Shown one piece after another: positions 12,754 through 62,529 of a DNA stretch of 64,000 bases. Numbering within the stretch: position 1 is the first letter of the stretch; the number at the start of each line of letters is the position of its first letter. The notes under the pieces were generated by a model that had not been told where the DNA came from, ran no database searches, and worked only from the letters and a program-made list of their open reading frames with translations. Origin of the DNA: Nitratireductor mangrovi. GTDB lineage: Bacteria; Pseudomonadota; Alphaproteobacteria; Rhizobiales; Rhizobiaceae. The stretch spans positions 2,666,001-2,730,000 of the forward strand of contig NZ_CP042301.2 in assembly GCF_007922615.2 (NCBI RefSeq), written 5' to 3'. The translations under genes were made by a program, and so were the position numbers.

Positions 12754-12799
12754 GATGGGTCCTCCCGAAAAGACGCAAACATAAGCTTACGTACCTCAA

Positions 12800-12827
12800 A
12801 CTAAATGAGGTACGTACCTCATGTCAA
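12800..12827 (-). promoter_or_regulatory. Predicted promoter of the sugar/polyol ABC-DHA kinase operon
   Basis: On the minus strand, -35 TTGACA (12822-12827) and -10 TTTAGT (12800-12805) are separated by 16 bases, and that spacer is exactly the palindromic operator. A repressor bound there would exclude RNA polymerase. Confidence 0.7.
12805..12822. promoter_or_regulatory. LacI-family operator O1 (18-bp palindrome)
   Basis: ATGAGGTACGTACCTCAT is a perfect palindrome with the central CG typical of LacI-family sites. A half copy (ACGTACCTCA, 12789-12798) lies next to the predicted transcription start, and another copy sits in the promoter of the adjacent lacI-type gene, linking site and regulator. 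Confidence 0.8.
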
Positions 12828-12906
12828 CTCAGAATCTGACGATCGTGGATTGCGTCGACTGGCAGCCGGAATTGCACGGGTTCTTAAAGGGCCGCGGCCC
12901 AGCGGA

Positions 12907-13935
12907 TCAGACCAGGTTTTCGCGCACCACAATCTCGATTCTGATGCGTTCCTGCGACTGGACTATGTCGAGCCCGTCACTCTTGGCGCGCAATACCCGC
13001 AGGGCGCTGCGCACGATATGGCCGACATTCTGGCTGATGACGGCGTCCATCAGATTATCGCGCAACGCGTCGCGCGTAACATCGGTAAGCTCATGGCCGA
13101 TGACCGTTATGTTGCTCCGGCGCCCATAACCGCGCAGCAGATCGACCAGCGCGTGACTGCCGTGGCCGACCGAATATATGCCGTTGATATCCCCTCGCTC
13201 CGCCAGCACGGCGGTGACAACACGTGCAGTGAGGTCTTCATTGTCGTGGTTCTCCAGCGACGGCAGCACTTCAATCTCGGGGAAGGATTCAGCCATCACC
13301 TGATCGAAGCCCAGACGCCGCTCGACATTATCCCGAGCCTGCATCGAGCTGACCAGAACCATGACCGAACCGCCTGTATTTCCTAGGAATTTCCCCATCA
13401 GGAAGCCGGCTGTGCGCCCGGCCGCGACGTTGTCGACGCCAATGAAATGGTCGCGCTCCGTGTTCGGAAGGTCGGAAACCAGCGCCACGACAGGTATGCC
13501 CTCGGCCTTCAGCCGTACAATGGCATCGCGGAGATGGGGTGTTTCCGGAGCGAAGATCGCGACGCCGTCGGTATCGTCGGCGCCGAGTTCGCGCAGCGAT
13601 CTGACCAGGGCGTGCGGATTGTCGTTCGGGAACGTCAGGATGCGAACATCGGTCCGCTCGGTGACCGAGTTCGCAATGGCCTCGTTAATCGCGTCGCGCA
13701 GCGTTCGGACAAAGAGGGCCGGCATGTCCGGGAGTACGAACACCAGCCGATAACGGCGCTGGCGCGCCAGGTTCGCCGCCGTGACATCGCGGACGTAGCC
13801 AAGCTGTTCGATAGCACTATTGACGCGGGCAACCGTCTTTTCGCGCACGCCTGGCCGCGCGTTGAGGACGCGATCGACCGTTGCAAGGCTCACCCCTGCG
13901 GCCTTCGCGATATCGTTGACTGTCGGCCGCGCCAT
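12907..13935 (-). CDS. LacI-family transcriptional regulator
   Basis: A 342-residue repressor. Residues 1-50 are the LacI helix-turn-helix (TVNDIAKAAGVSLATVDRVLN with hinge region following), then a periplasmic-binding-like effector domain (VFVLPDMPALFVRTLRDAI, GVDNVAAGRTAGFLMGKFLG, IYSVGHGSHALVDLL). GGGAGG before the ATG at 13935 fixes the start; the longer open frame has no ribosome site. It lies upstream of the ABC operon on the same strand, and shared palindromes indicate it represses that operon and itself. Confidence 0.92.
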   Translation of the reverse strand: MARPTVNDIAKAAGVSLATVDRVLNARPGVREKTVARVNSAIEQLGYVRDVTAANLARQRRYRLVFVLPDMPALFVRTLRDAINEAIANSVTERTDVRILTFPNDNPHALVRSLRELGADDTDGVAIFAPETPHLRDAIVRLKAEGIPVVALVSDLPNTERDHFIGVDNVAAGRTAGFLMGKFLGNTGGSVMVLVSSMQARDNVERRLGFDQVMAESFPEIEVLPSLENHDNEDLTARVVTAVLAERGDINGIYSVGHGSHALVDLLRGYGRRSNITVIGHELTDVTRDALRDNLMDAVISQNVGHIVRSALRVLRAKSDGLDIVQSQERIRIEIVVRENLV

Positions 13936-46865: not shown

Positions 46866-46945
46866 GTCCCCGCAACTTCCCTGCACTGCCGCCGGCCATC
46901 GGCCGCCTGTGTGGCGACGAAATGAGACGCTGATCTCACCATGGC

Positions 46946-46992
46946 TTGCGCCAGCCGCCTGACCATGTATCATACCGGTATGGTGCCATACC
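46946..46992 (+). promoter_or_regulatory. Predicted TRAP operon promoter with overlapping GntR operators
   Basis: -35 TTGCGC (46946-46951) and -10 TATCAT (46968-46973) are 16 bases apart. Overlapping and following are two palindromes: CATACCGGTATG (46971-46982, perfect) and GGTATGG-TG-CCATACC (46977-46992, perfect 7-bp arms). They share the GGTATG unit and fit a GntR repressor site covering the transcription start. Confidence 0.65.
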
Positions 46993-47051
46993 GCAAGCAA
47001 CTGCTGTGCCGCGGACCTTGCGCACCGGAGGGCAATCCGAGGGAGGAGACA

Positions 47052-48074
47052 ATGACCTCAAGGGGTATCAAGATTTCGCGACGCGGCTTTATCGCCGCCG
47101 GCACCGCTGCGCTCGCTTCGCCGGCTTTCATCCGTCACGCCAAGGCGCAGGAGTTCGTGTGCAAGATCGCCCATACCGAAGGCATCGGCACGCCGATCAC
47201 CAACGCCTTCGACGCCTGGGCGGCCGCGATGAACGAAAAGAGCGGCGGTCGTATCGACGCGCAGCATTTCCCAGCCGCACAGCTTGGCGGCCTAGCGGAA
47301 GCGCTGGAAGGAAGCCGCATCGGCACAATCCAGGTGACGACGGCCGGACCCGACTCCGAGGAGGCAATAGCGCCCGAGATCGCTGCTTTCGGCGGGGCGC
47401 CCGGTTTCATCTACAAGAGCGAGGAGCATGTCGATCGCGTGTTGCAGGGCGAACTCGGGCAGAAATGCTCTGACATCGCCCGGGCCAAGACCGGCGTCGA
47501 GTTCGTCGCTTACGGTGAGACGGGCTTCCGCCACATCCTGGCCAAGCGGCCGGTTGGCAATCTCGCCGACCTCGCAGGCCTCAAGATCCGGGTGCCGCAG
47601 CTCCGCATCTGGGTCGATTTCTGGTCACTCCTCGGCACCGCGCCGACGCCGCTTCCGTACAGCGAACAGTACTCGGCGCTGTCGACGGGCATCATCGATG
47701 CCATAGATTCCGACGTGTTTTCGATCGTCGGCTTCAAGTTCCACGAGCAGGCGCAGCACCTTACGCTGACCGGCCACTGGTTCCTGCCCAAGGCGGTGCG
47801 CGTCAACGCCGCATGGCTGGACAGCCTGCCGGAGGACCTGCGCGCTATGGTACGCGAAACGGCCAAGGAGGCCTTCGCCGAGCAGCGTCGCATCAATCGC
47901 GCCAATGCCGCAAAGACGCTGGAAGATCTGAAGGGCCTCGGCGTGCAAGTACAGCAATTGCCGGCGGAAGAACTGGCCAAGATGGAAGAGAAGACCGCCG
48001 GTCTGTTTGACGAGTTCGGGTCGAAGAGCCCTGAGACCGCCGAGATGATCAAGGCCATCCGGGCCCTGGGCTGA
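47052..48074 (+). CDS. TRAP transporter substrate-binding protein DctP (uronate-like cluster)
   Basis: A 340-residue periplasmic receptor with a Tat-type signal (KISRRGFIAAGTAALASPAF), then the DctP fold including GLKIRVPQLRIWVDFWSLLG and YSALSTGIIDAIDSDVFSI. GGGAGGAGAC precedes the ATG at 47052. Its arginine site (KIRVP) is the family carboxylate binder, consistent with an acidic sugar. Confidence 0.92.
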   Translation: MTSRGIKISRRGFIAAGTAALASPAFIRHAKAQEFVCKIAHTEGIGTPITNAFDAWAAAMNEKSGGRIDAQHFPAAQLGGLAEALEGSRIGTIQVTTAGPDSEEAIAPEIAAFGGAPGFIYKSEEHVDRVLQGELGQKCSDIARAKTGVEFVAYGETGFRHILAKRPVGNLADLAGLKIRVPQLRIWVDFWSLLGTAPTPLPYSEQYSALSTGIIDAIDSDVFSIVGFKFHEQAQHLTLTGHWFLPKAVRVNAAWLDSLPEDLRAMVRETAKEAFAEQRRINRANAAKTLEDLKGLGVQVQQLPAEELAKMEEKTAGLFDEFGSKSPETAEMIKAIRALG

Positions 48075-48095
48075 GGTCTGGTATAGTCTGACATC

Positions 48096-49973
48096 ATGGG
48101 CATTGAAGTCGAAACCGATGCCGCGCCCGAAGGCGCGGCATCCACCGATATGCATGGTGGCTTCGCGCGGATCGTCGACCGATCGCTGGAGGGGGTCACG
48201 GTCGGGCTGATGCTCGTGGCGGTCGCCGTCGCGTGCCTTCAGGTCGTGCTTCGCTACATTTTCAACTCGGGTCTGCCCTGGCCCGAAGAACTTGCGACCT
48301 GGGTCTTCGGCTGGGCGGTCTTTCTCGGCATGGCAGTCGCAACCGCCCGCGATTCGCACATATCGATCGACGTGGTCACCCGGGCACTTCCCGCACGACC
48401 CCGCGCCTATCTGCTTCTATTCAATCGCTCGGTGATGGCCGCCGCCAGTATCATGCTGGTCATACATGGCTGGGACTATGCGAACCGCGTGATCTCGGCG
48501 TCGCCCGCCCTCCAGTGGTCGATGCAGTACTACTTCGTCGTGCTGCCCGTAGGTGCCGCGTTCAATCTTTTCTTCCTGGCTTGGCCATCGACCAGCCGCA
48601 CATGGCTGCAGGGTCTTGGCGTGCTCATCGGCGGCGTGCTGATTTACGCCGCAATCCGCTACGGCGCATCCAGCGTCTACGGGCAGAGCGGCAGCGCAAT
48701 CGTGCTGGTCGCCGCCGGGATCGTATCCATTGTCATCGGCGTGCCGGTCGCCTTTGCACTGATCTTTGGCGCCTTCGCGGCCTTCGCCGCCTTCAATCCG
48801 CTTCTGCTGGTCACGATCTCGCAGAACATGGGGGCGTCGATGAATTCGTTCACGCTGCTGGCCATCCCCTTCTTCATTCTCGCCGCCGCAGTCATGAACG
48901 CTGGCGGGATTACGCCGCGGCTGGTCGACCTCGCCATGCAGTTGGTCGGCCATCTGCGCGGCGGTCTCGGGCAGGCCAACGTCGTCACCAATACCATGCT
49001 GGCCGGCGTCTCAGGCTCGTCCACCGCCGACGCTTCCACGATCGCCAAATTGCTGGTTCCCGAGATGGCCGAGCGCGGCTACAGCCGCCCGTTCGGAGCG
49101 GCTCTGACCGCATCCGCAGCCACACTGGCGAACCTCATTCCGCCAAGCCTGGGACTGATTATCTACGCTGCCCTCGCCTCGGTCTCGGTCGGCGCGCTGT
49201 TCGTCGCCACGATCGTGCCGGGACTGATGGTCGCCGGCGCGCTGATGCTCGTCGTCTACGTGCTGTCGCGACTGCGGGGCTATGGCGGCGACCTGCCGAA
49301 AGCCTCGCTTCGGGAGCGCATGTCGTCACTGGGGCTGGCAATCCCGGCCCTGATCTTGCCGGTGATTATCGTCGGCGGCGTGCGTTTCGGCGTGTTCACC
49401 GCCACCGAGGCCGGCGCAATCGCCTTCATCTACGCCTTTTTGTGCGGGGCGCTGCTCTACCGCAAGCTGACGGCGGCGAACTTCATCGCGGCCATCCGTG
49501 AATCGGCGCTCGACACGGTGGTGATCGCGATCATCATTGCCGCTGCCGCTCCCTTCGCCTGGGTGCTGGCCTTTGAGCAGGTGCCACAAAAGATCGCGCT
49601 GGGACTTGCCGAACTCGTCTCTCAGCCGATCGTACTCATCCTCGCCATCAACCTGTTCCTGATCATCGTCGGCCTGTTCATGGAGATGATCGCTTCCCTG
49701 GTCATTCTCGTGCCCATCCTTGTGCCGCTGGTGATCGCCGGCGGCATGGACCCGATCCAGTTCGGCGTCGTGATCGTCATGAACCTCGTCATAGGCGCGC
49801 TCACACCACCGCTCGGCGTGCTGGTGTTCACCACCGCGCGCGTGGGCGGAGCGAACCAGACCGAAACGTTCAAGGCCATCCTGCCTTTCGTAGCGGCGCT
49901 CGTAACAGTGCTGATGCTGGTGACGTTCGTGCCTGCATTCACCATGCTGCCAGTGGCCTGGCTCGGGCCCTGA
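48096..49973 (+). CDS. Fused TRAP transporter permease (DctQ-DctM)
   Basis: A 625-residue inner-membrane protein. Residues of about 20-195 are the DctQ part (LPWPEELATWVFGWAVFLGM), joined by an extra helix to the DctM part (about 205-625) with NVVTNTMLAGVSGSSTADAS, LIPPSLGLIIYAALA and GALTPPLGVLVFTTARVGG. Fused permeases are known in the family; the earlier TRAP in this window is split, so the two are unrelated acquisitions or distant paralogues. Confidence 0.93.
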   Translation: MGIEVETDAAPEGAASTDMHGGFARIVDRSLEGVTVGLMLVAVAVACLQVVLRYIFNSGLPWPEELATWVFGWAVFLGMAVATARDSHISIDVVTRALPARPRAYLLLFNRSVMAAASIMLVIHGWDYANRVISASPALQWSMQYYFVVLPVGAAFNLFFLAWPSTSRTWLQGLGVLIGGVLIYAAIRYGASSVYGQSGSAIVLVAAGIVSIVIGVPVAFALIFGAFAAFAAFNPLLLVTISQNMGASMNSFTLLAIPFFILAAAVMNAGGITPRLVDLAMQLVGHLRGGLGQANVVTNTMLAGVSGSSTADASTIAKLLVPEMAERGYSRPFGAALTASAATLANLIPPSLGLIIYAALASVSVGALFVATIVPGLMVAGALMLVVYVLSRLRGYGGDLPKASLRERMSSLGLAIPALILPVIIVGGVRFGVFTATEAGAIAFIYAFLCGALLYRKLTAANFIAAIRESALDTVVIAIIIAAAAPFAWVLAFEQVPQKIALGLAELVSQPIVLILAINLFLIIVGLFMEMIASLVILVPILVPLVIAGGMDPIQFGVVIVMNLVIGALTPPLGVLVFTTARVGGANQTETFKAILPFVAALVTVLMLVTFVPAFTMLPVAWLGP

Positions 49974-50001
49974 GCGGAACAGCTTTCATGAAGGACTTCA
50001 C

Positions 50002-51030
50002 GTGAAAAAGACGCGCATCGCGATCGTCGGTCTGGGCATGGCGGTCACGCCCCACGCCAGGGGGCTCGTCGACCTTGCCGGCGAGGTGGAGGTGGCTTAC
50101 GCCTTCAGCCCTAGCGAGGCGCGTCGCAAGGCGTTCGCCGACAAATTTGCGTTCCCGACCTGCGACAGCCTCGACACGATCCTGAAAGACAGGAGCGTCG
50201 ATGCCGTCGCGGTCTACACGCCGGCCAACACACATCGTGACATCGGCCTTGCCTGCGCGCACGCGGGCAAGCATGTGCTGATGGAGAAGCCGCTCGACAT
50301 CACCACGGCGCGCGCCATCGAGCTTGTCGAAGGCTGCCGCACCGCCGGCGTGAAAATGGGGGTGGTGCTTCAGCATCGTTTCCGTCCAGCCGGAGTGAGG
50401 CTGGCGGAGATACTGGCAGCGGGCGAACTCGGCCGGATCGTCGGCTGTTCGGCTGCGATCCGCCTGTGGAGGCCGCAATCCTATTACGACGAGCCCGGCC
50501 GCGGGTCCTTCGCCCGCGACGGTGGCGGGGTCCTGATTTCCCAGGGCATCCACACGCTTGACCTGATGCTGAGCTTGGCCGGGCAGGTCGACACTGTGAC
50601 CGGTTTCAACACGACGACACCGGTGCACACCATGGAAACAGAAGACATGGTCTGCGCAGCCATACGCTTCGACAATGGTGCTTTCGGCACGATCGAAGCC
50701 ACGACCGCCGCCTATCCCGGCTTCGCCGAGGAGATCGTGCTGACCTGTGAGAAAGGCACCGCCCGCCTCACCGGCACGCAACTGCTGGTCCAGTTCCAGG
50801 ACGGTGGCGAGGAAACCATCGAGGCCGACAGGAGCGCCGGCGGCACGGGGGCCGATCCCATGGCGTTCCCCCACGACTACCATCGCTCGGTGATGGCCGA
50901 TTTCGTCGCGGCGATCCGCGACGGCAGTGCGCCGAAGGTGACCGGCTATGAGGCATTGAAGGTGCACCGCCTGATCGACGCGCTGATTGAGACCGGGCAG
51001 ACCGGAAAGGCCGTGGCGGTAGCCCGATGA
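50002..51030 (+). CDS. Gfo/Idh/MocA-family oxidoreductase (copy 1)
   Basis: A 342-residue NAD(P)-dependent sugar oxidoreductase: Rossmann IAIVGLGMAVTPHARG, the catalytic lysine in LMEKPLDIT, and GGGVLISQGIHTLDLML with the catalytic histidine-aspartate region. The start is GTG at 50002 with AAGGA upstream. Its stop overlaps the next oxidoreductase start. Possible job: oxidation or reduction of an acidic sugar entering by the TRAP transporter. Confidence 0.9.
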   Translation: MKKTRIAIVGLGMAVTPHARGLVDLAGEVEVAYAFSPSEARRKAFADKFAFPTCDSLDTILKDRSVDAVAVYTPANTHRDIGLACAHAGKHVLMEKPLDITTARAIELVEGCRTAGVKMGVVLQHRFRPAGVRLAEILAAGELGRIVGCSAAIRLWRPQSYYDEPGRGSFARDGGGVLISQGIHTLDLMLSLAGQVDTVTGFNTTTPVHTMETEDMVCAAIRFDNGAFGTIEATTAAYPGFAEEIVLTCEKGTARLTGTQLLVQFQDGGEETIEADRSAGGTGADPMAFPHDYHRSVMADFVAAIRDGSAPKVTGYEALKVHRLIDALIETGQTGKAVAVAR

Positions 51031-52049
51031 GCAGCCCCTTGCGCTTTGCGGCGATCGGGCTTGATCACCGGCATATCTACCACCTTGTGGGCGAGAACAT
51101 TGCGGCAGGCGCCGAGTGCGTCGGCTACTGTTCCGAGACCAGTGATCCTCGGGTTCTGGAGGGGTTTCGCGAGCGTTTCCCCGCACTTGCCGAGGTCGAG
51201 CGTGACCGGCTGTTCGACGATCGATCCATCGATTTCATCGTTTGTGCATCGATTCCGGTCGACCGACCGGCGATCGCCGTCAGAGCCATGCGCGCTGGCA
51301 AGGACGTGATGGTCGACAAGCCGGGCGCGACAAGTCTTGTCCAGGTGACTGAACTGGAACGGGTAGCAGCAGAGACGGGGCGCATTTTCTCCATCTGCTT
51401 TTCCGAGCGTTTCGTCGTGAGAGCCTGTGAGGCCGCTTCGCGGCTGGTGGCTGAGGGCGCGGTTGGTCGCGTGGTACAAACAACAGGTCTCGGCCCCCAC
51501 CGCCTCAACCGCGCAATCAGGCCAGAGTGGTTTTTTCGGCCGGAGACATTCGGCGGCATTCTAACCGACATCGGCTCGCACCAGATCGACCAGTTCCTGC
51601 ACTTTACCGGTAACTTGTCCGCCGACATCGTCGCAAGCACAGTCTCCAATCACGCCTTGCCCGACGTTCCCCTGTTCGAGGATTTCGGCGAAATTCTTCT
51701 GCGTGCGGACGATGCGTCGGGCTTTATTCGCGTCGACTGGTACACGCCTGACGGCCTGCCGACCTGGGGCGATGGTCGGCTGTTCCTGCTTGGCACCGAA
51801 GGTACGATCGAACTCAGGAAGTATGTAGACATCGACGGACGTCCGGGGGCGGATCACCTGTTTCTTGTCGACCAGCGGGGAACCCAACACATCGACTGTT
51901 CAGCCGAGCCACTGGCCTACTTCAAGCGATTTCAAGATGACGTGCGCGAGCGCACCGACACGGCCATGCGGAAGGGCCACGCACTCACCGTCACGAGGCT
52001 GGCGATCGAGGCGCAATCCGTCGCCCGCCGCCTGGGGAGCCGTGCATGA
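51027..52049 (+). CDS. Gfo/Idh/MocA-family oxidoreductase (copy 2)
   Basis: A 340-residue protein, distinct from copy 1: FAAIGLDHRHIYHLVGENI (histidine-rich in place of the glycine loop), catalytic lysine in MVDKPGATS, and GGILTDIGSHQIDQFLHFTG. The nucleotide loop lacks the full GxGxxG, so cofactor binding may differ. ATGA overlaps link it to copy 1 and uxuA. Confidence 0.88.
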   Translation: MSSPLRFAAIGLDHRHIYHLVGENIAAGAECVGYCSETSDPRVLEGFRERFPALAEVERDRLFDDRSIDFIVCASIPVDRPAIAVRAMRAGKDVMVDKPGATSLVQVTELERVAAETGRIFSICFSERFVVRACEAASRLVAEGAVGRVVQTTGLGPHRLNRAIRPEWFFRPETFGGILTDIGSHQIDQFLHFTGNLSADIVASTVSNHALPDVPLFEDFGEILLRADDASGFIRVDWYTPDGLPTWGDGRLFLLGTEGTIELRKYVDIDGRPGADHLFLVDQRGTQHIDCSAEPLAYFKRFQDDVRERTDTAMRKGHALTVTRLAIEAQSVARRLGSRA

Positions 52050-53269
52050 GGCATATGTGGCGCTGGTTTGGGCCGCATGACAAGTGCCGCATAGAGGACA
52101 TCGAGCAGTCAGGAGCCCTCGGCGTTGTCTCGGCTCTGCATCACCTGCCGAATGGCGTCGTATGGCGTCCGCAGGAAATCGCGCTGCGCAAGCAACAGGT
52201 CGCGCACCGATCGAACGGTGAGCCGTCTACACTGCGCTGGGACGTCGTTGAAAGCCTCCCCGTCAGCGAGGACATCAAGAAGCAGAATGGCGACTGGCGC
52301 GAGCACGTCGAGGCATACAAGCAGTCGTTGCGCAATCTCGCTTGCGCCGGCATCGAGATTGTCTGCTACAATTTCATGCCGGTACTGGACTGGACCCGCA
52401 CTGCACTGCGTTGGCGCGTTCGGAACGGTGCGACATGCATGCGCTTCGACATCCACGACTTCGCGGCATTCGATATTCACATCCTGCGCCGCGAAGGCGC
52501 CGCTCGCGACTTCGACCGAGAAGTGGTGGAGGAAGCCGCGCGTCGCCATGCCGCAATGAGCGACGAAGCCCAGCAGGTGCTCGCCCGTTCAGTCACGATG
52601 GGTCTGCCGGGATCCACCGAGTCGATGGATCTGGCGCGTGTGAGAGAGCATCTCGCGGCGTACGGTCCGATCACGCCCGCCCGCCTCCGAAGGCATCTCA
52701 CAGATTTTCTGCAGCAGGTCGTGCCGGTCGCCGAAGAGGTGGGCATCAGGCTGTGTTGCCATCCCGATGATCCGCCCTTTCCACTGCTCGGGCTGCCGCG
52801 CGTCATGTCTACCGCCGATGACTACGCAACAATTCTCGAAGCCGTCGACAGCCCAGCGAACGGGATGACGCTTTGTTCCGGCTCGCTCGGCGCGCGCCCG
52901 GACAACGACTTGCCCGCCATCATGGACCACTTTGGCAGCAAGGTGCATTTCCTGCATTTGCGCAATGTCAAGCGCGATACCGAGGCCCTTGTGGGTTCCT
53001 TCTACGAGGCCGAGCACCTTGAGGGCGACACCGACATGGTTGCACTCATCGCCTCGGTCCTGCGCGAGGAAATGCGCAGGCGTGGCGAGGGTCGCACCGA
53101 TGCCGAGATCCCGATGCGCCCCGACCATGGGCAGGAGATCGTCGACGACCTCGGGCGCGGAGGGCAGCCGGGATATCCGATCGTCGGGCGTCTCCGCGGT
53201 CTTGCCGAGCTGCGAGGCATCGAGCGGGCTTTGGCCTCTACCCGTGCATACGTTCTCCAATCTGGCTGA
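52046..53269 (+). CDS. uxuA: Mannonate dehydratase
   Basis: A 407-residue TIM-barrel enzyme that dehydrates D-mannonate to 2-keto-3-deoxygluconate. Seen: MWRWFGPHDKCRIEDIEQSG, VVESLPVSEDIKKQNG, CYNFMPVLDWTRT, CCHPDDPPFPLLGLPR (metal Cys/His), LCSGSLGARPDND, FLHLRNVKRD and RPDHGQEI. Length is normal. No classic mannonate oxidoreductase (UxuB) lies here; a Gfo/Idh/MocA enzyme may fill that step. Confidence 0.95.
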   Translation: MRHMWRWFGPHDKCRIEDIEQSGALGVVSALHHLPNGVVWRPQEIALRKQQVAHRSNGEPSTLRWDVVESLPVSEDIKKQNGDWREHVEAYKQSLRNLACAGIEIVCYNFMPVLDWTRTALRWRVRNGATCMRFDIHDFAAFDIHILRREGAARDFDREVVEEAARRHAAMSDEAQQVLARSVTMGLPGSTESMDLARVREHLAAYGPITPARLRRHLTDFLQQVVPVAEEVGIRLCCHPDDPPFPLLGLPRVMSTADDYATILEAVDSPANGMTLCSGSLGARPDNDLPAIMDHFGSKVHFLHLRNVKRDTEALVGSFYEAEHLEGDTDMVALIASVLREEMRRRGEGRTDAEIPMRPDHGQEIVDDLGRGGQPGYPIVGRLRGLAELRGIERALASTRAYVLQSG

Positions 53270-53732: not shown

Positions 53733-55196
53733 ATGAACGTGATGCACAGCCCCACGGTGGGTCCGAAGACGCCTGAAAGCTTCTTCATTAACGGGCGCTG
53801 GGTCGAGCCGATCTCGAAGCAATTGCTGAAGGTCGTTTCACCGGCGACGGAAGAACTGCTCTTGAGCTATCCCGAAGCCGGGCCGGCCGACATCGATCGC
53901 GCCGTCGCCGCGGCCCGCGCGGCCTTCGACAAGGGCCCCTGGCCGCAGATGTCGGCCACGGAGCGTGCGCGCTATCTGCGGCGCGTCGCGGAGCTCTTGA
54001 ACGGGCGCCTCGACGAGATCGCACAGGCCTGGACGCTGCAGGTCGGCGCCCCGATCTCGCTGACCAAGAAGCTCGTTGGGCAGAACCCGACGCTCTTCAA
54101 CTATTATGCCGACCTGATCGAGACCTTTGCCTTCGTCGACGAGCGCAAGCGCGACGACGGCGGCAGGGTGCGGGTGGTCAAAGAACCCGTCGGCGTTTGC
54201 GCCGCCATCACCCCGTGGAACGCGCCGCTGGTGCTGCTTTCCTACAAGGTCGCGGCGGGCCTTGCCGCCGGCTGTACCATGGTCGCGAAGCCGTCCCCCG
54301 AAACCCCGCTGGAAGCCTACATCCTGGCGGAATGCATCGAACGGGCAGGTTTGCCGGAAGGTGTGTTCAACATCGTGCCGGCCGGCCGCGAGGGCGGCGA
54401 TCGTCTCGTTCGTCACAAGGGCATTGACAAGGTGGCGTTCACCGGCTCGACCGGCGCCGGCAAGCACATCGCCGCCGTTTGTTCGGAACGCCTGGCGCGG
54501 GTCAGCCTCGAGCTTGGCGGCAAATCGGCCGCGGTGCTCCTCGACGACGCCGACTTCCAGGCGGCCCTGCCGAGCCTGATGGTCTACACCATGCCGATCA
54601 CAGGTCAGGTGTGCTTCTCGCTGACCCGTATCCTGGTGCCGGAGCGGCGCGAGAAGGAATTCCTCGACCTCTATCTGGGCGCGGTCTCCGGCATCAAGGT
54701 CGGCGACCCGTTCGACCCAACCACGCAGATGGGGCCGCTGACCATGGCGCGGCAGCGGGCGCGCGTGGAAGGCTACATCGCGGCGGGACGCGCCGAGGGA
54801 GCGCGCATTGCCTGCGGCGGCGGACGCCCACAGGGACTGGATCGAGGCTACTACGTCGAGCCGACCGTCTTCACCGACGTCACGCCGCACATGAAGATCG
54901 TGCAGGAGGAGATCTTCGGTCCGGTCGTCTCGGTGCTGACCTATCGCGACGAGGACGAGGCGGCCGAGAAGGCCAACAACTCCTCCTACGGGCTGTCTGG
55001 CGCGGTCTATACCGTCGACCCGGAACGCGGTTACCGCATGGCGCGGCGCATGCGCACCGGCTCGGTCACCATCAACGGCATGATCGTCGATCCGAAGCAC
55101 CCCTTCGGCGGCTACAAACAGTCCGGCATCGGGCGCGAAGGCGGCCCGGAGGGGCTCGACAACTATCTGGAGACCAAGACCATCCACTACGCCTGA
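53733..55196 (+). CDS. Aldehyde dehydrogenase (first, upstream of Liv-type transporter)
   Basis: A 487-residue NAD-dependent ALDH with ITPWNAPLVLLSYKVAAGLA, AKPSPETPLEAY, FTGSTGAGKHIA, SLELGGKSAAVLLDDADF (general-base Glu), PITGQVCFSLTRILV (catalytic Cys) and EEIFGPVVSVLTY. Similar enzymes oxidise terpenoid or aromatic aldehydes, but specificity cannot be read. GGGAGGAGAGG sets the start. First gene of an operon ending with another ALDH. Confidence 0.93.
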   Translation: MNVMHSPTVGPKTPESFFINGRWVEPISKQLLKVVSPATEELLLSYPEAGPADIDRAVAAARAAFDKGPWPQMSATERARYLRRVAELLNGRLDEIAQAWTLQVGAPISLTKKLVGQNPTLFNYYADLIETFAFVDERKRDDGGRVRVVKEPVGVCAAITPWNAPLVLLSYKVAAGLAAGCTMVAKPSPETPLEAYILAECIERAGLPEGVFNIVPAGREGGDRLVRHKGIDKVAFTGSTGAGKHIAAVCSERLARVSLELGGKSAAVLLDDADFQAALPSLMVYTMPITGQVCFSLTRILVPERREKEFLDLYLGAVSGIKVGDPFDPTTQMGPLTMARQRARVEGYIAAGRAEGARIACGGGRPQGLDRGYYVEPTVFTDVTPHMKIVQEEIFGPVVSVLTYRDEDEAAEKANNSSYGLSGAVYTVDPERGYRMARRMRTGSVTINGMIVDPKHPFGGYKQSGIGREGGPEGLDNYLETKTIHYA

Positions 55197-55254: not shown

Positions 55255-56451
55255 ATGCTGAGACGTACATTCATTGCCCTGACCGCGTCCGCCGCGACGC
55301 TCGCCCTTGCCGGCGCCGCGTACGCCCAGGAGGTGATCAAGATCGGCGCCAGCGCGCCCAAGTCGGGACCTCTGGCGGGCGGCGCCGCGATGACCCACTG
55401 GCCGAACATCAAGCTCTGGATGCAGGAGGTCAACGACGCCGGCGGCCTCAAGGTCGGCGACAAGCAGATGAAGCTCGAACTGGTCGAATATGACGACAAG
55501 ACCAATGGCGAGGAAGCGATCAAGAACATCCAGCGGCTCGCCACCGTGGACGAGGTCGACTTCATCGTCGCCCCCTATTCCACCGGGCTCAACATCGCGA
55601 CCGCGCCGGCCATCGCCAGATACGGTTATCCGCACATTGCGACGACGGCAGCGACCGACGGCGTAAAGGATTTCGCCGGCCGCTGGCCGAATTCGTTCTG
55701 GATGCTCGGCACCTCGACCCAACTTGCCGAAGGCATCGTCTCGACGCTGGCCAAGATGAAGGACAAAGGCGATATCGGCAACAAGGTGGCACTGGTCAAT
55801 GTCGCCGATGCCTTCGGCCTGGAACTGGTCGCCGCCGCCAAGCCGGCGCTCGACGCTGCCGGGTTCGAGATCGTCTACGAGACCTCCTACCCGCTAGGCA
55901 CGCAGGATCTGGCCCCGGTCATCAGCCAGGCCAAGGCCGCCGCACCGGACGCATTCGTTGCATTTTCCTATCCGGGTGACACCTTCGCCCTGACCGAACA
56001 GGCACAGGTGCAGAACCTGGACGTAGGCGTCTTCTATACCGGTGTCGGGACCGCCTTCCCGCCATTCGCAGGCCGCTTCGGCGCGGCCGCCAATGGCATC
56101 ATGGGTATCGGCGGCATCAACAGCGAAGATCCCACGGTCAAGGCCTATATCGACAAGCATAAATCGGTGCTGAACGCCGATCCGGACTATTGGGCCAGCG
56201 CAACGACTTATGCAGGCCTGCAAATCCTTGGCCAGGCGATCGAAAAGGCAGGTTCGCTCGACCGGGCGGCCGTCGTCGAGGCGATCAAGACCAACACTTT
56301 CGACACCGTGATCGGCCCGGTGGCCATGCCGGAAAACGTCAATCCGAACGTCTGGACCGTCGGTCAATGGGATGGCGGCGTCTTCAAGGCGGTCGCGGCC
56401 GAAGGCCTCGACGTGGCCATCGAACCCGCCAAGAAGGGTGGCTGGCAATAG
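55255..56451 (+). CDS. livJ: Branched-chain-type ABC transporter substrate-binding protein
   Basis: A 398-residue periplasmic receptor: signal peptide MLRRTFIALTASAATLALAGAAYA, then the Peripla_BP_6 fold (IKIGASAPKSGPLAGGAAMT, ELVEYDDKTNGEEAIKNIQRL, DFIVAPYSTGLNIATAPA, FVAFSYPGDTFALTEQA). ALDH genes on both sides suggest an aromatic or aliphatic carboxylate or aldehyde-derived ligand rather than leucine. Confidence 0.92.
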   Translation: MLRRTFIALTASAATLALAGAAYAQEVIKIGASAPKSGPLAGGAAMTHWPNIKLWMQEVNDAGGLKVGDKQMKLELVEYDDKTNGEEAIKNIQRLATVDEVDFIVAPYSTGLNIATAPAIARYGYPHIATTAATDGVKDFAGRWPNSFWMLGTSTQLAEGIVSTLAKMKDKGDIGNKVALVNVADAFGLELVAAAKPALDAAGFEIVYETSYPLGTQDLAPVISQAKAAAPDAFVAFSYPGDTFALTEQAQVQNLDVGVFYTGVGTAFPPFAGRFGAAANGIMGIGGINSEDPTVKAYIDKHKSVLNADPDYWASATTYAGLQILGQAIEKAGSLDRAAVVEAIKTNTFDTVIGPVAMPENVNPNVWTVGQWDGGVFKAVAAEGLDVAIEPAKKGGWQ

Positions 56452-56681: not shown

Positions 56682-57548
56682 ATGAACATACTGATTACCG
56701 GCATTCTGCTCAGCGGTACCTATGCGCTTGTTGCCCTCGGCCTGACGCTGCAATACGGCGTCGCCCGCATCATGAATCTCGGCAATGGCGAGACGCTGGT
56801 CGCAGCCTGTTTCGTCGCCTTCTGGCTCTATGCTGCTTATGCGATCAACCCGCTCCTCGGGCTTCTGCTGATCGCACCGGCCGCCTTTCTGATCAACTGG
56901 GCGATCTATGCCCTGGCCCTTGCGCCTCTGGTGAAACGGGCCAAGAACCGCGGCCAACTCGAGGCCGACTCCATCCTGGCGACCTTCGGCCTGCTCTTCC
57001 TGCTGCAGGGATTGATGATCCTCGGCTTCGGTGGTGAATACCGCTCCTACACCTTCCTGGCGGAGCGCTTCGACCTCTTCGGCAACTCCTACGGCCTGAA
57101 CCGCGTCGTCGCCTTCGCGGCGGCGGTCGTGATCTGTTCTGCGCTCTGGTTCTTCCTTTACCGAACTCGCCAGGGCACGGCGATGCGTGCCGTCGCCGTC
57201 GATCCCAATTCGGCCAATCTCGTTGCCATCGACGTTCCGCGAACCGCAGCGATCGCCTTCGCACTCGGCGGGGCGCTGACCGCCTGCGGTGGCGCGCTGA
57301 TTTCGACCTTTTACACCTTCAACGCGTCGATGGGCGTGATCTTCACCATGAAGGCGCTGATCATCGTCATCATGGGCGGCGTCGGCGACCTGCGCGGCGC
57401 TGTGCTTGCGGCCCTCATTCTCGGCGTCTCCGAGACACTCGTGGCGAGCCTGATCGATCCGGGCCTGACGCTCGCCGCAACCTACGCGCTCTTCATCCTG
57501 GTGCTCCTGTTCCGACCGCAGGGCATCTTCGGCAGGGCTCCGTCATGA
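56682..57548 (+). CDS. livH: Branched-chain-type ABC transporter permease LivH
   Basis: A 288-residue inner-membrane permease (TYALVALGLTLQYGVARIMN, VDPNSANLVAIDVPRTAAIAF, TMKALIIVIMGGVGDLRGA). The coupling loop is VDPNSANLVAIDV. Stop overlaps the LivM start (ATGA). Confidence 0.93.
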   Translation: MNILITGILLSGTYALVALGLTLQYGVARIMNLGNGETLVAACFVAFWLYAAYAINPLLGLLLIAPAAFLINWAIYALALAPLVKRAKNRGQLEADSILATFGLLFLLQGLMILGFGGEYRSYTFLAERFDLFGNSYGLNRVVAFAAAVVICSALWFFLYRTRQGTAMRAVAVDPNSANLVAIDVPRTAAIAFALGGALTACGGALISTFYTFNASMGVIFTMKALIIVIMGGVGDLRGAVLAALILGVSETLVASLIDPGLTLAATYALFILVLLFRPQGIFGRAPS

Positions 57549-58507
57549 CCGCGTTCACTCTGAAAGAGTGGCGCTGGCTCGCCGGCGGAGCGGTGATTGC
57601 CGCGGTGGCGGCACTGCTGCCGCTGTTCGACCAGGGATTCTACCTCTCGATCTCCGTGAACATCATGCTCTATGCCGCGCTGTGCACGGCTTGGGCGCTG
57701 TTTTCCGGACCGACCCACTACGTATCTCTGGCAACGGCCGCCTTCTACGGGCTCGGTACCTACTCCGTCGGTCTCGGCATCGACATCCTGCCCTACCCGG
57801 CTCTGGTCGCTATAGCGGCGGCCATCGGCGCGGCGGCGGCCGGGCTGGTCGGCGCGGCGACCCTGCGCATCTCGGGCGTCTATTTCGTCATCTTCACCTT
57901 CGGGCTCGCCGAATTCGTCCGCCAGGTCGTGACCTGGACCCAGACCAAATTCGCAACCGCAATCGGCCTTTACGTCTTCACCGATCTTGCCGAGCAGCAC
58001 ATCTACTGGATGCTGCTCGCGCTGACGGTGGCCGTGTTCCTGACCGGCTTCCTGATCAGCCGGTCGCGTCTCGGCTTCGCCATGAATATCATCGGCAACG
58101 ACGAGACGGTGGCACGCCATGTCGGCATCGACACCGCACGGGCAAAGGTGACGCTGTTCATGATCTCCGGCGCCTTCATCGCGATCGCCGGCGCAATCAT
58201 GGCGCCGCGCTACTCCTATATCGAGCCGCCGTCGGCCTTCAATCCGATGATCTCCTTCCTCGTCGTGATCATGGCGCTGTTGGGGGGAACCAGGCGTCTC
58301 TGGGGGCCGCTGGTCGGCGTTATCCCGTTCACCATCATGATGGACTTCGTGTCCTCGCGATTCCCGAACCACACCATGATCGTGATCGGGCTCGCTTTTC
58401 TGGCCATTGTCTACGTTATCCCGCATGGCGTTACCGGGCTGATCGAGCAGTTGCGGGAAAGGCTGAAGAGGCGAGCCGAGGCCCTTGGTGAGGAGAGGCC
58501 GGCATGA
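57545..58507 (+). CDS. livM: Branched-chain-type ABC transporter permease LivM
   Basis: A 320-residue inner-membrane permease with ISVNIMLYAALCTAWALFSG, LRISGVYFVIFTFGLAEFVR, NIIGNDETVARHVGIDTARA (coupling loop) and MALLGGTRRLWGPLVG. Overlaps its neighbours by ATGA on both sides. Confidence 0.93.
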   Translation: MTAFTLKEWRWLAGGAVIAAVAALLPLFDQGFYLSISVNIMLYAALCTAWALFSGPTHYVSLATAAFYGLGTYSVGLGIDILPYPALVAIAAAIGAAAAGLVGAATLRISGVYFVIFTFGLAEFVRQVVTWTQTKFATAIGLYVFTDLAEQHIYWMLLALTVAVFLTGFLISRSRLGFAMNIIGNDETVARHVGIDTARAKVTLFMISGAFIAIAGAIMAPRYSYIEPPSAFNPMISFLVVIMALLGGTRRLWGPLVGVIPFTIMMDFVSSRFPNHTMIVIGLAFLAIVYVIPHGVTGLIEQLRERLKRRAEALGEERPA

Positions 58508-59238
58508 CCGAAGCTGCCGCACTTTCCGTCCACGCGGCCCGAAAGGCGTTTGGCGGCCTGGTCGCCGTGAACGACGTCTCGTTCGAAGTCAGACCCGGCG
58601 CGTTGCTCGGCCTGATCGGACCCAACGGCTCCGGCAAGACCACGATGCTCAACCTGATCTCGGGCGCGCTGAAGCCGACCGCCGGCGCCATCGAGCTTGG
58701 CGGCGAGCGCATCTCGGACCTTCCGGCGCACAGGATCGCCCAGCGTGGCGTGGCGCGCACCTTCCAGCTCGTGCGCATGCTTCCGGCGCTGGACGCCGAG
58801 GAGAATGTCATGGCCGGGGCTGTCTTCGGCCACACGCGGCTATGGGGCGAGGATGCGCGCAAGCGGGCACGCGACCTGCTCGACCGTGTCGGCCTGCGAG
58901 GCCGCGCGCACGTTCCGGTCGGCGCCTTCACCTATATCGACCAGAAGCGCGTCGAACTCGCTCGCGCGCTCGCCTCCGATCCGCGCGTCCTGCTGCTCGA
59001 CGAATGGCTGGCCGGGCTCAACCCAAGCGAGTTGAAGATCGGCATCGCCCTGATCGACGAGTTACGGCGCGAGGGCCGAACCATCATCATGGTCGAGCAT
59101 GTGATGGACGCCATCCGAGAGCTGTGCGACCGTTGCGTTGTCATGTCGGGCGGACAGAAGATCGCCGAGGGCGGCGTCGCCGAGACCTTGTCGGATCCTG
59201 AGGTCGTGCGCGCCTATCTGGGAGACGAGGATGCTTGA
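58504..59238 (+). CDS. livG: Branched-chain-type ABC transporter ATP-binding protein LivG
   Basis: A 244-residue ATPase: Walker A GPNGSGKTT, LivG-type VARTFQLVRMLPALDAEENV, a signature-region FTYIDQKRVELARALASDPR (the canonical LSYGQ is replaced by FTYID), Walker B VLLLDEWLAGLN and switch VEHVMD. Walker B has DEW in place of DEP. Stop overlaps livF by eight bases. Confidence 0.9.
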   Translation: MTEAAALSVHAARKAFGGLVAVNDVSFEVRPGALLGLIGPNGSGKTTMLNLISGALKPTAGAIELGGERISDLPAHRIAQRGVARTFQLVRMLPALDAEENVMAGAVFGHTRLWGEDARKRARDLLDRVGLRGRAHVPVGAFTYIDQKRVELARALASDPRVLLLDEWLAGLNPSELKIGIALIDELRREGRTIIMVEHVMDAIRELCDRCVVMSGGQKIAEGGVAETLSDPEVVRAYLGDEDA

Positions 59239-61069
59239 GGTGCAGAACCTCGCCGTCTCCTACGGCCGCCACCGGGCGCTCGAAGGCGTGGGCATCACCG
59301 TCGAAAAAGGCGAGATCTGCGTCATCCTAGGTGCCAACGGCGCCGGCAAGTCGACGCTTCTGAAGGCGATCGCCGGAATGGTGTCGACCGATACCGGCGA
59401 GATCATCATGAACGGACGCGCGATCACGCGCGAAAAGCCGAACAAGGTGGTCGAGGCCGGCGTGGCGCTCGTCCCCGAAGGGCGCGGCATCTTTGGCGAC
59501 CTTTCGGTGGCGGAGAACCTGCAGCTTGGCGCATTCGCCCGCCGCGCGCGCCGTGCCGAGCAGGTGACGCTGAAGACGATCTACGAACTGTTCCCGCGGC
59601 TCGCCGAACGCAAGCGTCAGATCGCACGCACCATGTCCGGCGGCGAGCAGCAGATGGTGGCCATCGGACGGGCGCTGATGTCGAAGCCCGACATCCTGAT
59701 GCTGGACGAACCGTCGCTCGGCCTTTCTCCGATCCTCACCCGTGAGCTCTTCCGCTCTCTGAGCGACGTCGCGGCCACCGGGGTCGGCATCCTGCTTGTC
59801 GAGCAGAACGCCAAGCAGAGCCTGAAGATCGCAGGACGCGGCTATCTGATCGAGAATGGCCATGTCACCGGAGAAAACAGTGCCGAGGCGCTGCGCAACG
59901 ATCCGGCGGTGATCGCGGCCTATCTCGGCGGCGCTGGCGGCGGGCGCGCCACCCGACCCGCCGTGCACCTGCCACCGGCGATGCCGCTGCCGGCCGCCGT
60001 CGCGGCGATGGGCCGGATGGCGGGCGACCTCGCCGCGCGCGCCGGAGACGTGAGCCGCGCCTTCGTGCGCTCTCTGCGGCGCGCGGAGACGCTGCCATCT
60101 GCTTTCGCGGGCCGATACGATCCGAAGGCGGGAGGTGACCCCTGGCAGGAAATCGCCCGGGCCGAGCCAACAGCGGAAACGGCTAGCACCGCCGTTCCCG
60201 CCATCGCCGAAGAGGCCCGTTGGCTGGCCGCCTCCTCCGGCAATCTGGCTCGCAGCGCCGCAGAGCGGCTGGCACGCCATGTCGAAGCAAACCGGCGCGG
60301 GGCCACGGTTCCCAGCGCCTTCCAGAGGAAGACGCTTCCGGAAACAGACCAGAAAGCATCATTGCCAACGCCGGACCTCGCGTCGCGGACTGTAGCGTTT
60401 CCGGTCCCTGCCCAGACTCCCGCCGACATGGCAGGCCGGGCCGCGGAGCGCATGGCACGGCATCTCGCGACGGTCAGGGCAGCGGCCCCGTTGCCGAGCG
60501 CCTTTCAACGAAACGTCGAGGAGTACGCCCCGAGTTCTCCGGCGAACAGGACCCCGCACGCGCAAAAACTCAACGGTTCGCGCGGGCTGCTCGGCCATAA
60601 CAGCGCTGCCGCCGGAATGCGGCTCGACGAAGCGGAGACGCCGTCGAACGACGCACCGGCGACAGGTATCGCTATCGCCCAGTTGGTCGCTCGCGCCGAG
60701 GCCGCGCAAAAACGACATGTGGCCGCCGAAAGACGTACCACGCCGAACACAAACGGACCGCGTTCGGCCACTCCAGATTCACCGAGCGACCGAGACCAGG
60801 TCGCGTCGGGCGACGACGAGACGTCGATCGCCGAGTTGGCGACCCGCGCCGCCGCGATCCAGCGGCGGCACATCGACAAGGGCCAGCGCATACTCACCGT
60901 GCTCACCGTCCCCGCCGCGTCGCCCGCCACGAGCGAGCCGGCGACACCGGCCGCGGACCCAACAACACCCGACGACAAGGCCGTCCGCAAGGCGGCCAGG
61001 AAACCCGCCCGCAAGGGCAAGAAGCACAAGGCGAAGAAAAAGCCTGCCAAGCACCAGGAGAAGCGCTGA
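59231..61069 (+). CDS. livF: LivF-type ATP-binding protein with a long repetitive C-terminal extension
   Basis: Residues 1-234 are a complete LivF ATPase: Walker A GANGAGKST, LVPEGRGIFGDLSVAENL, signature MSGGEQQMV, Walker B ILMLDEPSLGLSP, switch LLVEQNAK. Normal LivF ends here (YLGG). This frame continues without a break for about 378 residues, Ala/Arg-rich and probably disordered or helical, with recurring units: LPSAFAGRY (288), VPSAFQRKT (360) and LPSAFQRNV (421), each preceded by a helix such as AAERLARHVEANRR or AAERMARHLATVRA; then AIAQLVARAEAAQKRHV (about 481) and SIAELATRAAAIQRRHI (532). It ends in a very basic Lys-rich tail (about 580-612). Stop overlaps the ALDH ATG (TGATG), so the extension is in the operon. 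Function unknown. Confidence 0.88.
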   Translation: MLEVQNLAVSYGRHRALEGVGITVEKGEICVILGANGAGKSTLLKAIAGMVSTDTGEIIMNGRAITREKPNKVVEAGVALVPEGRGIFGDLSVAENLQLGAFARRARRAEQVTLKTIYELFPRLAERKRQIARTMSGGEQQMVAIGRALMSKPDILMLDEPSLGLSPILTRELFRSLSDVAATGVGILLVEQNAKQSLKIAGRGYLIENGHVTGENSAEALRNDPAVIAAYLGGAGGGRATRPAVHLPPAMPLPAAVAAMGRMAGDLAARAGDVSRAFVRSLRRAETLPSAFAGRYDPKAGGDPWQEIARAEPTAETASTAVPAIAEEARWLAASSGNLARSAAERLARHVEANRRGATVPSAFQRKTLPETDQKASLPTPDLASRTVAFPVPAQTPADMAGRAAERMARHLATVRAAAPLPSAFQRNVEEYAPSSPANRTPHAQKLNGSRGLLGHNSAAAGMRLDEAETPSNDAPATGIAIAQLVARAEAAQKRHVAAERRTTPNTNGPRSATPDSPSDRDQVASGDDETSIAELATRAAAIQRRHIDKGQRILTVLTVPAASPATSEPATPAADPTTPDDKAVRKAARKPARKGKKHKAKKKPAKHQEKR

Positions 61070-62529
61070 TGGCCCGCACTTTCGAAGGCATGTATATCGG
61101 CGGCGGCTGGACCGCCGCGAAGCGAACCTTCAAGGACCTCAATCCTTCGGACGGCTCGGTCTGGGCCGAGGTACCCGATTCCGGCCGTGCCGAAACGGCG
61201 GCGGCAATAGAGGCCGCCCACACCGCCTTTCCGGAATGGGCTCAGCTCCCCTTTTCCAAGCGCGCGCACTTCATGCACAAGGCCGCCGAAATCTGGGAAA
61301 AGCGCCGGATGGAGATCGTCGACGCCATCATGGCCGAAGGTGGCGGCTGGTTCGGCAAGGGCATGTTCGAGACGGGGTACGTGACCGAGATATTCCACGC
61401 GGCGGCCGGCTCGGTCTGGAACCCCACCGGCGAGGTGCTGCCTTCCGAATACGGCAAGGTTTCCATGGCCGTGCGGCGCCCGATGGGCGTCGTGTCGGTC
61501 ATTTCACCGTGGAACTTTCCCTGCATATTGACCGCTCGCGGCTTCCTGTTCCCGCTGGTGGCCGGCAACACGATCGTGCTCAAGCCGTCAGAGGAGACGC
61601 CCTATCTCGGCGGCCTGCTGTTTGCCGAAATCTTCGAGGAAGCGGGCCTGCCCAAGGGGGTCTTCAATGTCGTCACCTGCTCGCGCGACAATGTCGGCGA
61701 GGTCGGCGAGGAGCTGATCGAGCATCCCTACGTGAAGGGCATTTCCTTTACCGGTTCGACTGCGGTCGGCCGCCAGGTGGCGGCCCGGGCGGGCGCGCAT
61801 CTGAAGAAATGCTGCGTCGAACTGGGCGGCAAGGATTCGCTCATCGTGCTCGACGATGCCGACATGGAGCGCGCCACCCAGGCGGCTAGCTTCGGCTCCT
61901 TCATGCATCAGGGCCAGATCTGCATGTCGGTGGAGAAGGTGCTGGTACATGAGAAAATCTTCGACGATTTCCTCAAGCGCTTCGTCGAGCGCGCCGGCAA
62001 GTTGAAGGTCGGCGATCCGACCAAAAGCAAGGAGAATGTGATCGGGCCGCTGATCAACGACAAGCAGAGTGCCAAGGTAAAGGCACAACTCGACGACGCC
62101 ATCGCCAAGGGCGCAAAGGTCTTGCTGGGCGGCAAGGTCGACGGCCGCTTCATCGAGCCGACGATCCTCACCGGTGTCACGCCCGACATGAAACTTTACC
62201 AGGACGAGACCTTCGGGCCGGTGGTGCCGGTGATCCCGTTCCGGACCGACGACGAGGCGGTACAGATCGCCAACGACACCGAATACGGGCTCTCTGCCGG
62301 GGTCATGACCCGCGACGAGGGCCGCGGACTGGCGATCGTGCACAGGCTCGACACCGGAAACTGCCACATCAACTGCTCGAGCGTGAACGACGAGCCGCAC
62401 GTGCCGTTCGGCGGTTTCAAGGCCTCAGGGGTCGGCAAGCATGGCGGGCGCTGGTCGCTGGAAACCTTTACCGAGACGCGCTGGATCACGCTCGACCGCG
62501 GCGGCCGGCCCTACCCGCCCGTTTTCTGA
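61069..62529 (+). CDS. Aldehyde dehydrogenase (second, benzaldehyde/vanillin dehydrogenase-like)
   Basis: A 486-residue NAD-dependent ALDH: ISPWNFPCILTARGFLFPLV, LKPSEETPYLGG, FTGSTAVGRQVA, VELGGKDSLIVLDDADM (general base), HQGQICMSVEKVLV (catalytic Cys) and DETFGPVVPVIPF. Similarity of layout to aromatic aldehyde dehydrogenases is inferred. The conserved arginine after the cysteine is a lysine here. Translationally coupled to livF. Confidence 0.92.
   Translation: MARTFEGMYIGGGWTAAKRTFKDLNPSDGSVWAEVPDSGRAETAAAIEAAHTAFPEWAQLPFSKRAHFMHKAAEIWEKRRMEIVDAIMAEGGGWFGKGMFETGYVTEIFHAAAGSVWNPTGEVLPSEYGKVSMAVRRPMGVVSVISPWNFPCILTARGFLFPLVAGNTIVLKPSEETPYLGGLLFAEIFEEAGLPKGVFNVVTCSRDNVGEVGEELIEHPYVKGISFTGSTAVGRQVAARAGAHLKKCCVELGGKDSLIVLDDADMERATQAASFGSFMHQGQICMSVEKVLVHEKIFDDFLKRFVERAGKLKVGDPTKSKENVIGPLINDKQSAKVKAQLDDAIAKGAKVLLGGKVDGRFIEPTILTGVTPDMKLYQDETFGPVVPVIPFRTDDEAVQIANDTEYGLSAGVMTRDEGRGLAIVHRLDTGNCHINCSSVNDEPHVPFGGFKASGVGKHGGRWSLETFTETRWITLDRGGRPYPPVF

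Follow-up and report, generated by a model that had tools for sequence, protein, structure and literature searches.

A repeat-bearing C-terminal tail on a LivF-type ATPase of Nitratireductor mangrovi, possibly a docking tether for the adjoining aldehyde dehydrogenase

Importers of the LivKHMGF type carry one LivF per complex, and the LivF ATPases of branched-chain amino acid importers are the closest described relatives of the protein analysed here, alike in core motifs, core length, and the gene order LivK-H-M-G-F. A second point of comparison, in design only, is provided by the Rubisco linkers, for which one study sets out search criteria: a largely disordered chain with repeated structured elements at a spacing of 20-120 residues (PMC11570498). 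Our literature search, covering titles and abstract openings, returned no report of a tail on LivF, of the helix unit described below, or of a fusion of LivF with an aldehyde dehydrogenase (ALDH).

The window, i.e., the whole 64,000-nucleotide stretch of N. mangrovi contig NZ_CP042301.2 that was analysed, contains the gene order ALDH1-LivK-LivH-LivM-LivG-LivF-ALDH2 (LivH and LivM assigned by eye), and thus the LivK-H-M-G-F order of the known importers:

53733..55196, + strand: ALDH1, aldehyde dehydrogenase (found in 10/23 type-A loci)
55255..56451, + strand: LivK periplasmic binding protein (Pfam Peripla_BP_6; solved relatives)
56682..57548, + strand: LivH permease (named by eye and position; conserved in relatives)
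57545..58507, + strand: LivM permease (named by eye and position; conserved in relatives)
58504..59238, + strand: LivG-type ATPase (family searches)
59231-61069, + strand: LivF-type ATPase with tail, 612 aa (translated ORF, ATG at 59231 to TGA at 61067-61069)
59231..59932, + strand: LivF-type ABC ATPase core, residues 1-234 (translation; Pfam ABC_tran; invariant alignment columns)
59933..61069, + strand: C-terminal tail, 378 residues plus stop (translation; homologous tails in relatives; without Pfam family)
61069..62529, + strand: ALDH2, aldehyde dehydrogenase, 486 aa, the proposed tail partner (Pfam Aldedh, 543 bits)

The LivF core scored 108.4 bits against Pfam ABC_tran (cut-off 25) and contains GANGAGKST, MSGGEQQ, and ILMLDEP, which we take to be the Walker A, signature, and Walker B motifs. 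Its top NCBIfam model was PRK11614 LivF at 245.9 bits, under the 441-bit cut-off, and for this reason we call the protein LivF-type and not a LivF equivalog; it differs from the branched-chain LivF proteins in missing this cut-off and in adding the 378-residue tail. The TGA of LivF and the ATG of ALDH2 (61069) share one base (TGATG), which bears out the overlap reported in an earlier reading of this DNA from its sequence only, and with the stop at 61067-61069 the tail and ALDH2 lie on separate polypeptides, so the window LivF is not a fusion. Upstream of the locus, positions 46941-53269 encode a TRAP transporter (DctP and a fused DctQM), two Gfo/Idh oxidoreductases, and a UxuA-type mannonate dehydratase, together looking like a sugar-acid operon; many relatives instead have a further aldehyde dehydrogenase gene, ALDH3, upstream of the Liv operon.

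The core closes with AAYLGG (residues 229-234), where LivF normally ends, as the sequence-only reading had stated: 22 of 24 other LivF loci end within 4 residues past the core, and the remaining two are fusions. Homologues ending at about residue 235, which that reading had counted as evidence against a meaningful extension, therefore exist, but the nearest relatives keep the tail. Over this GC-rich stretch each of the five other frames has only 1 to 6 stops, so that an open frame alone is weak evidence for the tail. A frameshift or sequencing error near residue 234, also raised earlier, was excluded, because many separate assemblies have related tails that follow the core in frame. We determined dN/dS for 12 partly overlapping pairs of related loci, five of them drawn from four genomes of a single genus; it was 0.16-0.46 for the tail and 0.02-0.25 for the core, with the tail evolving faster in every pair. 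Judged from these in-frame relatives and substitution ratios, the tail is translated, as had been thought probable, and is under purifying selection looser than that on the core. We consider it very improbable that the tail has no function and is tolerated as read-through or low-complexity sequence in a GC-rich genome: the Ala/Arg/Pro-rich composition, the few stops in other frames, and the faster evolution relative to the core would all fit such an origin, but dN/dS is well under 1, motifs are conserved across families, and no tail-less LivF was found within the tailed clade among the loci read.

When the tail was used as the query, 21 of 394 family genomes matched at E <=0.001, of which 20 were true tails, including that of the own genome, distributed over nine genera; the match in G235 (C28, E 8e-6) was excluded from the count because it falls in an ORF other than LivF. 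The sample holds three further genomes of the own genus, and none of them matched. A species-level collection yielded 18 tailed loci (34 stretches fitted a pattern), several of them duplicating genomes of the family sample, with carriers in Mesorhizobium, Aliihoeflea, Aminobacter, Aquamicrobium, Aquibium, Chelativorans, and Pelagibacterium, as well as a Bradyrhizobiaceae MAG and Rhizobiaceae and Hyphomicrobiales assemblies without a genus name. At the order level, a profile matched 3 of 397 genomes besides the own genome, and a profile built from 17 type-A tails, i.e., tails of the window's kind, recovered the tail of G493 (E 1.8e-10). Two loci, L083 and L051, were cut off by contig ends. Searching the extension by itself, as had been advised, thus recovered homologous tails in relatives, but the window tail fell into no Pfam family, and the profile of 17 tails matched no solved structure better than E 0.25. 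Pfam gave a single chance-level match across the 17 tails (PF25435, E 0.049, in one tail), and no match was found among the plasmids of PLSDB.

Within the tail we recognised five copies of one unit together with two conserved blocks and a basic end:

60020..60103, + strand: helix unit 1, residues 264-291, LAARAGDVSRAFVRSLRR (unit profile E 5.5e-9, in profile; AlphaFold2 helix 257-285)
60095..60145, + strand: PSAFAGRYDPKAGGDPW block, residues 289-305 (P, S, A, F, G, R, P, P, and W invariant in 17 tails)
60245..60319, + strand: helix unit 2, residues 339-363, running into VPSAF (profile E 4.2e-5, outside profile; AlphaFold2 helix 327-357)
60419..60502, + strand: helix unit 3, residues 397-424, running into LPSAF (profile E 4.7e-8, in profile; AlphaFold2 helix 397-418)
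60569..60607, + strand: LNGSRGLLGHNSA motif, residues 447-459 (contains GHNS at 60593-60604)
60674..60745, + strand: helix unit 4, residues 482-505, LVARAEAAQKRHVAAER (profile E 2.6e-7, in profile; AlphaFold2 helix 482-503)
60827..60907, + strand: helix unit 5, residues 533-559, LATRAAAIQRRHIDKGQR (profile E 6.5e-10, in profile; AlphaFold2 helix 532-557)
60977..61066, + strand: Lys/Arg-rich C-terminus, last 30 residues (translation)

The repeat is a helix with the consensus LAxRAxxIQxxHVxxxR(R/K), often with PSAF behind it; in about 40% of 93 collected units, PSAF begins six residues past the first of the final arginines (P in 42, S in 39, A in 43, and F in 37). Although the collecting pattern fixes some of the unit positions by design, Arg was found in 85 of the 93 units at a position where the pattern allowed K, H, or Q, and in all 93 where K was allowed. 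The unit pattern occurred 72 times in 21 type-A tails (mean of 1000 shuffles, 0.1). The 23 type-B tails (described below) had 23 occurrences (shuffle mean 0.05), confined to 13 tails of which two are identical. These counts rule out composition as the source but are not an independent test, the pattern having been composed after both sets were viewed. The repetition of the unit exceeds chance. More independent are the recovery of the G493 tail by the profile of 17 type-A tails and that of unit 2 by a unit profile lacking it. In the window the five units start 75, 58, 85, and 51 residues apart (range 51-85). This unit profile was built from 21 typed units, which included four of the window's but not unit 2. 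It gave five matches in the own genome at E <=4.2e-5, all in the tail, with the next match at E 4.45 (150 of 333 first-look candidates scored), and the best matches in tail-less genomes were weak (E 0.006 in G001 and 0.02 in G055). The hydrophobic moment of the units was only modestly raised, at 0.366 compared with 0.295 for shuffles (sd 0.149), and 31% of the shuffles were higher. An origin of the unit as a copied ALDH helix, both being Ala-rich, was excluded: when 48 ALDHs were searched together with 10 type-B tails and 1000 shuffles, the best 40 rows included no ALDH.

The motifs listed in the sequence-only reading were all recovered. Its three LPSAFQR-type motifs at 288, 360, and 421 correspond to PSAF at 289, 361, and 422, preceded by L, V, and L; its two repeat units start at 485 (...ARAEAAQKRH) and 536 (...TRAAAIQRRH); and its Lys-rich end is the Lys/Arg-rich stretch of the last 30 residues. 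As an inventory of repeats it was incomplete, in that the helix copies at about 264, 339, and 397, the PSAFAGRYDPKAGGDPW block, and LNGSRGLLGHNSA had been missed. LPSAFQR as the shared repeating unit was excluded, since PSAF is present in 21 of 21 type-A tails but in only 1 of 23 type-B tails. The PSAFxGRYDPKxGGDPW block is likewise present in type-A tails, and GHNS occurs as one copy in each of the 21 type-A tails and in none of the 23 type-B tails. IGHNSG-like sites occur in other alphaproteobacterial proteins. When GHNS was considered as a docking motif of wider use, a degenerate DNA pattern for it fitted a single further site in the own genome (L164); this pattern requires a preceding Ile and so misses the window's own LLGHNS.

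AlphaFold2 was run twice, with and without the core, and in both runs predicted helices covered all five units with boundaries agreeing within two residues. Most of the linkers had pLDDT <50, from which we predict disorder, a property for which a check had been suggested, and there was no confident overall arrangement (pTM 0.43 and 0.28), the underlying alignments being shallow (18 and 17 sequences). The tail is thus predicted to consist of helical beads on a mostly disordered string. In its five predicted helical repeats, all within the 20-120 spacing, the tail is like EPYC1 and CsLinker (PMC11570498), and it would also be like them in being largely disordered if the prediction from these shallow alignments holds, but in the window the string is attached to a bacterial transporter ATPase, and its binding to an enzyme is putative. 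The resemblance to the Rubisco linkers would appear to be one of design and not of descent.

The composition of the tail also bears on whether a specific protein partner is needed at all. The pI of the window tail is 10.7, with medians of 10.6 for 20 type-A and 10.3 for 22 type-B tails, and many tails end Lys/Arg-rich, as would be expected of a basic anchor to anionic lipid or nucleic acid that sets the membrane region of the importer with no specific protein partner. Such an anchor leaves unexplained the fixed R, A, H, and R within the 93 units (some of these positions being fixed by the pattern), as well as the GHNS and GRYDPKAGGDPW blocks. Nor is every tail basic: the lowest pI of a type-B tail was 6.1, and the K+R fraction of the last 40 residues in tails of relatives ranged from 0.10 to 0.55. 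We therefore regard anchoring of this kind as quite unlikely to account for the tail, and any role of the basic end within the docking tether proposed below is putative.

Loci with a more distant ALDH2 (63-80% identity) also carry LivF tails, here called type B, of 122-398 residues. Some of these combine the helix unit with a Lys-rich end, and in one type-B subclade other pieces, seen by eye, take their place (DLVxRA, RLxxxLxEIExAA, and VYRR). The canonical unit is missing from 10 of the 23 type-B tails; when these ten were scored with the profile, L080, L158, and L147 fell near the top of 1000 shuffles, some of which equalled them. Across all tails, the number of pattern matches varied from zero to five. 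Two side observations were made on these tails. In L151 (G170), the 398-residue tail has near-identical copies of a AHDAAMRAGAERSRQAERVKNQEQ-like stretch, which suggests recent tandem growth, and the tails of L142 and L154 repeat a distinct short motif like EHRxFYVPAGA ahead of the helix units.

The relationship between the tail and ALDH2 was followed in both directions. Among the 394 family genomes, the 20 with a type-A tail were exactly the 20 with an ALDH2 of >=88% identity (G235 left out), and at the type-A loci of the family ALDH2 was 88-93% and complete LivF cores were 76-83% identical to those of the window. From tail to enzyme, ALDH2 follows LivF in 26 of the 27 tailed loci that were found without an enzyme query (23 type-A loci plus L078, L079, L080, and L162); in the exception, L098, the contig breaks off within the tail, and this genome has its ALDH2 on another contig (L116). 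From enzyme to tail, a tailed LivF lay upstream in all 19 loci inspected among a further 21 family genomes with a more distant ALDH2, the other two being ALDH2 fragments (G286 and G369), and in the class genomes outside the family (385 searched) a tailed LivF stood beside ALDH2 in 3 of 3, two of these tails being identical. For 18 of 22 type-B loci the ALDH2 query was the means of discovery, and ALDH2 is present there by construction. A second ALDH2-like copy in G407 (L148, 55%) has no adjoining Liv genes. The sequence-only reading had linked the transporter to the aldehyde dehydrogenases in general; the constant ALDH2 neighbour and the fusions of neighbouring branches described below agree with such a link, but since ALDH1 and ALDH3 come and go, in 10 and 33 of 45 tabulated loci respectively (some of the absences being due to short contigs), the likely partner is the downstream ALDH2 alone. 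No ALDH3 was found when the own genome was searched, the best match being ALDH2 at 44%.

The nearest solved relatives of ALDH2 were salicylaldehyde and vanillin dehydrogenases (PDB 6qhn and 9ihb; 408 and 398 bits), which hints at an aromatic aldehyde as a possible substrate; these enzymes are closer to ALDH3 (566 and 533 bits), and their likeness to ALDH2 is at the family level. Among the best 25 of 45 NCBIfam models matched by ALDH2, none reached its own cut-off, and a Pfam search of ten neighbour genes of relatives gave no pathway in common by which to name a substrate. In L080, a flotillin gene follows ALDH2 (11905-13413).

In a tree of 64 LivF cores (midpoint root; L083 and L161 left out; 6 of 10 fusions included), the 42 tailed cores formed one clade (96/85), within which the 20 type-A cores formed another (99/96). 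Since both the tail and ALDH2 go back to a single clade, finding them together is weak, non-independent evidence of a partnership and may reflect one ancestral arrangement. This single origin also fits a tail that acts on the transporter itself, its helices binding to LivG, LivF, or the cytoplasmic side of LivH/LivM and gating ATPase activity or assembly, with ALDH2 a neighbour by descent. The other Liv genes are as constant beside the tail as ALDH2 where the contig reaches (LivH or LivM being masked in some loci by ORF picking), and there are precedents among ABC ATPases, such as MalK and MetN, for C-terminal regulatory domains. Regulatory domains, however, usually have a compact fold and constant length, whereas these tails vary between 122 and 398 residues in length and between zero and five in pattern matches, their predicted helices are separate with no confident arrangement (pTM values as above), and the LivF proteins of neighbouring branches manage without a tail. 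On balance, we think regulation of the transporter an unlikely explanation, though less so than the basic anchor.

The neighbouring branches offer a different kind of evidence, for here LivF without a tail adjoins an ALDH3-type gene or is fused to one. With an unfused ALDH3-type gene directly behind LivF there was no tail in 2 of 2 loci, and 3-9 residues in 6 of 7 other loci. At least 10 of the 357 order genomes have LivF and ALDH in a single open frame (L165-L173 and L176), eight in one genus and one each in two other families, with 30 of 62 matches read and LivF absent from the fetched flank in 13 of these 30 loci. G654 was excluded from the fusions (47% over the whole fusion, with three stops inside), and L177 (G559), in which the LivF frame runs 330 codons through the ALDH gene in another frame and which could be a frameshift or an overlap, was assigned to neither the fusion nor the tail count. 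The fusions belong to the same transporter family as the window LivF and have the C-terminus of LivF joined to the aldehyde dehydrogenase by a linker, about 20-98 residues long, that showed no helix unit by eye. They differ from the window in that the connection is covalent and the enzyme of the ALDH3 type, whereas the window tail and ALDH2 are separate. The fused enzymes group with ALDH3 and not with ALDH2 (joint group 100/100, with a long-branch warning). Fusions appear in three places of the LivF tree, which with the 6 fusions included requires three changes, whether gains or losses. It would seem from the fusions that in this transporter group selection has favoured a LivF joined to an aldehyde dehydrogenase; because the fused enzyme is of the ALDH3 type, the fusions back the principle of tethering and not the pairing of the LivF tail with ALDH2.

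Based on these comparisons, our preferred reading, to which we give a probability of about 0.45, is that the tail would act as a multivalent docking tether holding ALDH2 under the importer. The earlier suggestion of a docking or scaffold element fits the predicted bead-on-string architecture, but the shared unit on which it would depend is the helix and not LPSAF. In the proposed arrangement, the LivKHMGF importer would probably take up an aromatic or similar small molecule, and the C-terminus of its LivF would present several short helices, five of them in the window, along a basic, Ala/Pro-rich chain predicted to be mostly disordered. Every such helix would bind one subunit of an oligomeric ALDH2, which might in this way be held, and perhaps clustered, beneath the importer and would then oxidise its aldehyde on entry or formation. 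Enzymes of the aldehyde dehydrogenase superfamily are usually dimers or tetramers, and several equal helices on one ATPase chain together with a usually oligomeric enzyme would give the geometry of a multivalent tether. Counting against the tether are the 10 type-B tails that lack the canonical unit, the modest hydrophobic moment, the weak unit matches in tail-less genomes, and the single clade behind both tail and ALDH2. A more ambitious version of the tether, possible if somewhat doubtful, is a bacterial transport metabolon in which the built-in linker of LivF, like a membrane-anchored EPYC1, would cluster or condense an oligomeric aldehyde dehydrogenase at the site of import, with neighbouring branches reaching the same end through direct fusion.

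If the tail does hold ALDH2, it would represent a genetically simple and testable coupling of uptake and aldehyde oxidation at an ABC importer, for which the varying number of units, the type-B tails, and the fusions form a natural comparison set. The helix unit would also mark a transporter group which, from its ATPase alone, would read as a branched-chain amino acid importer.
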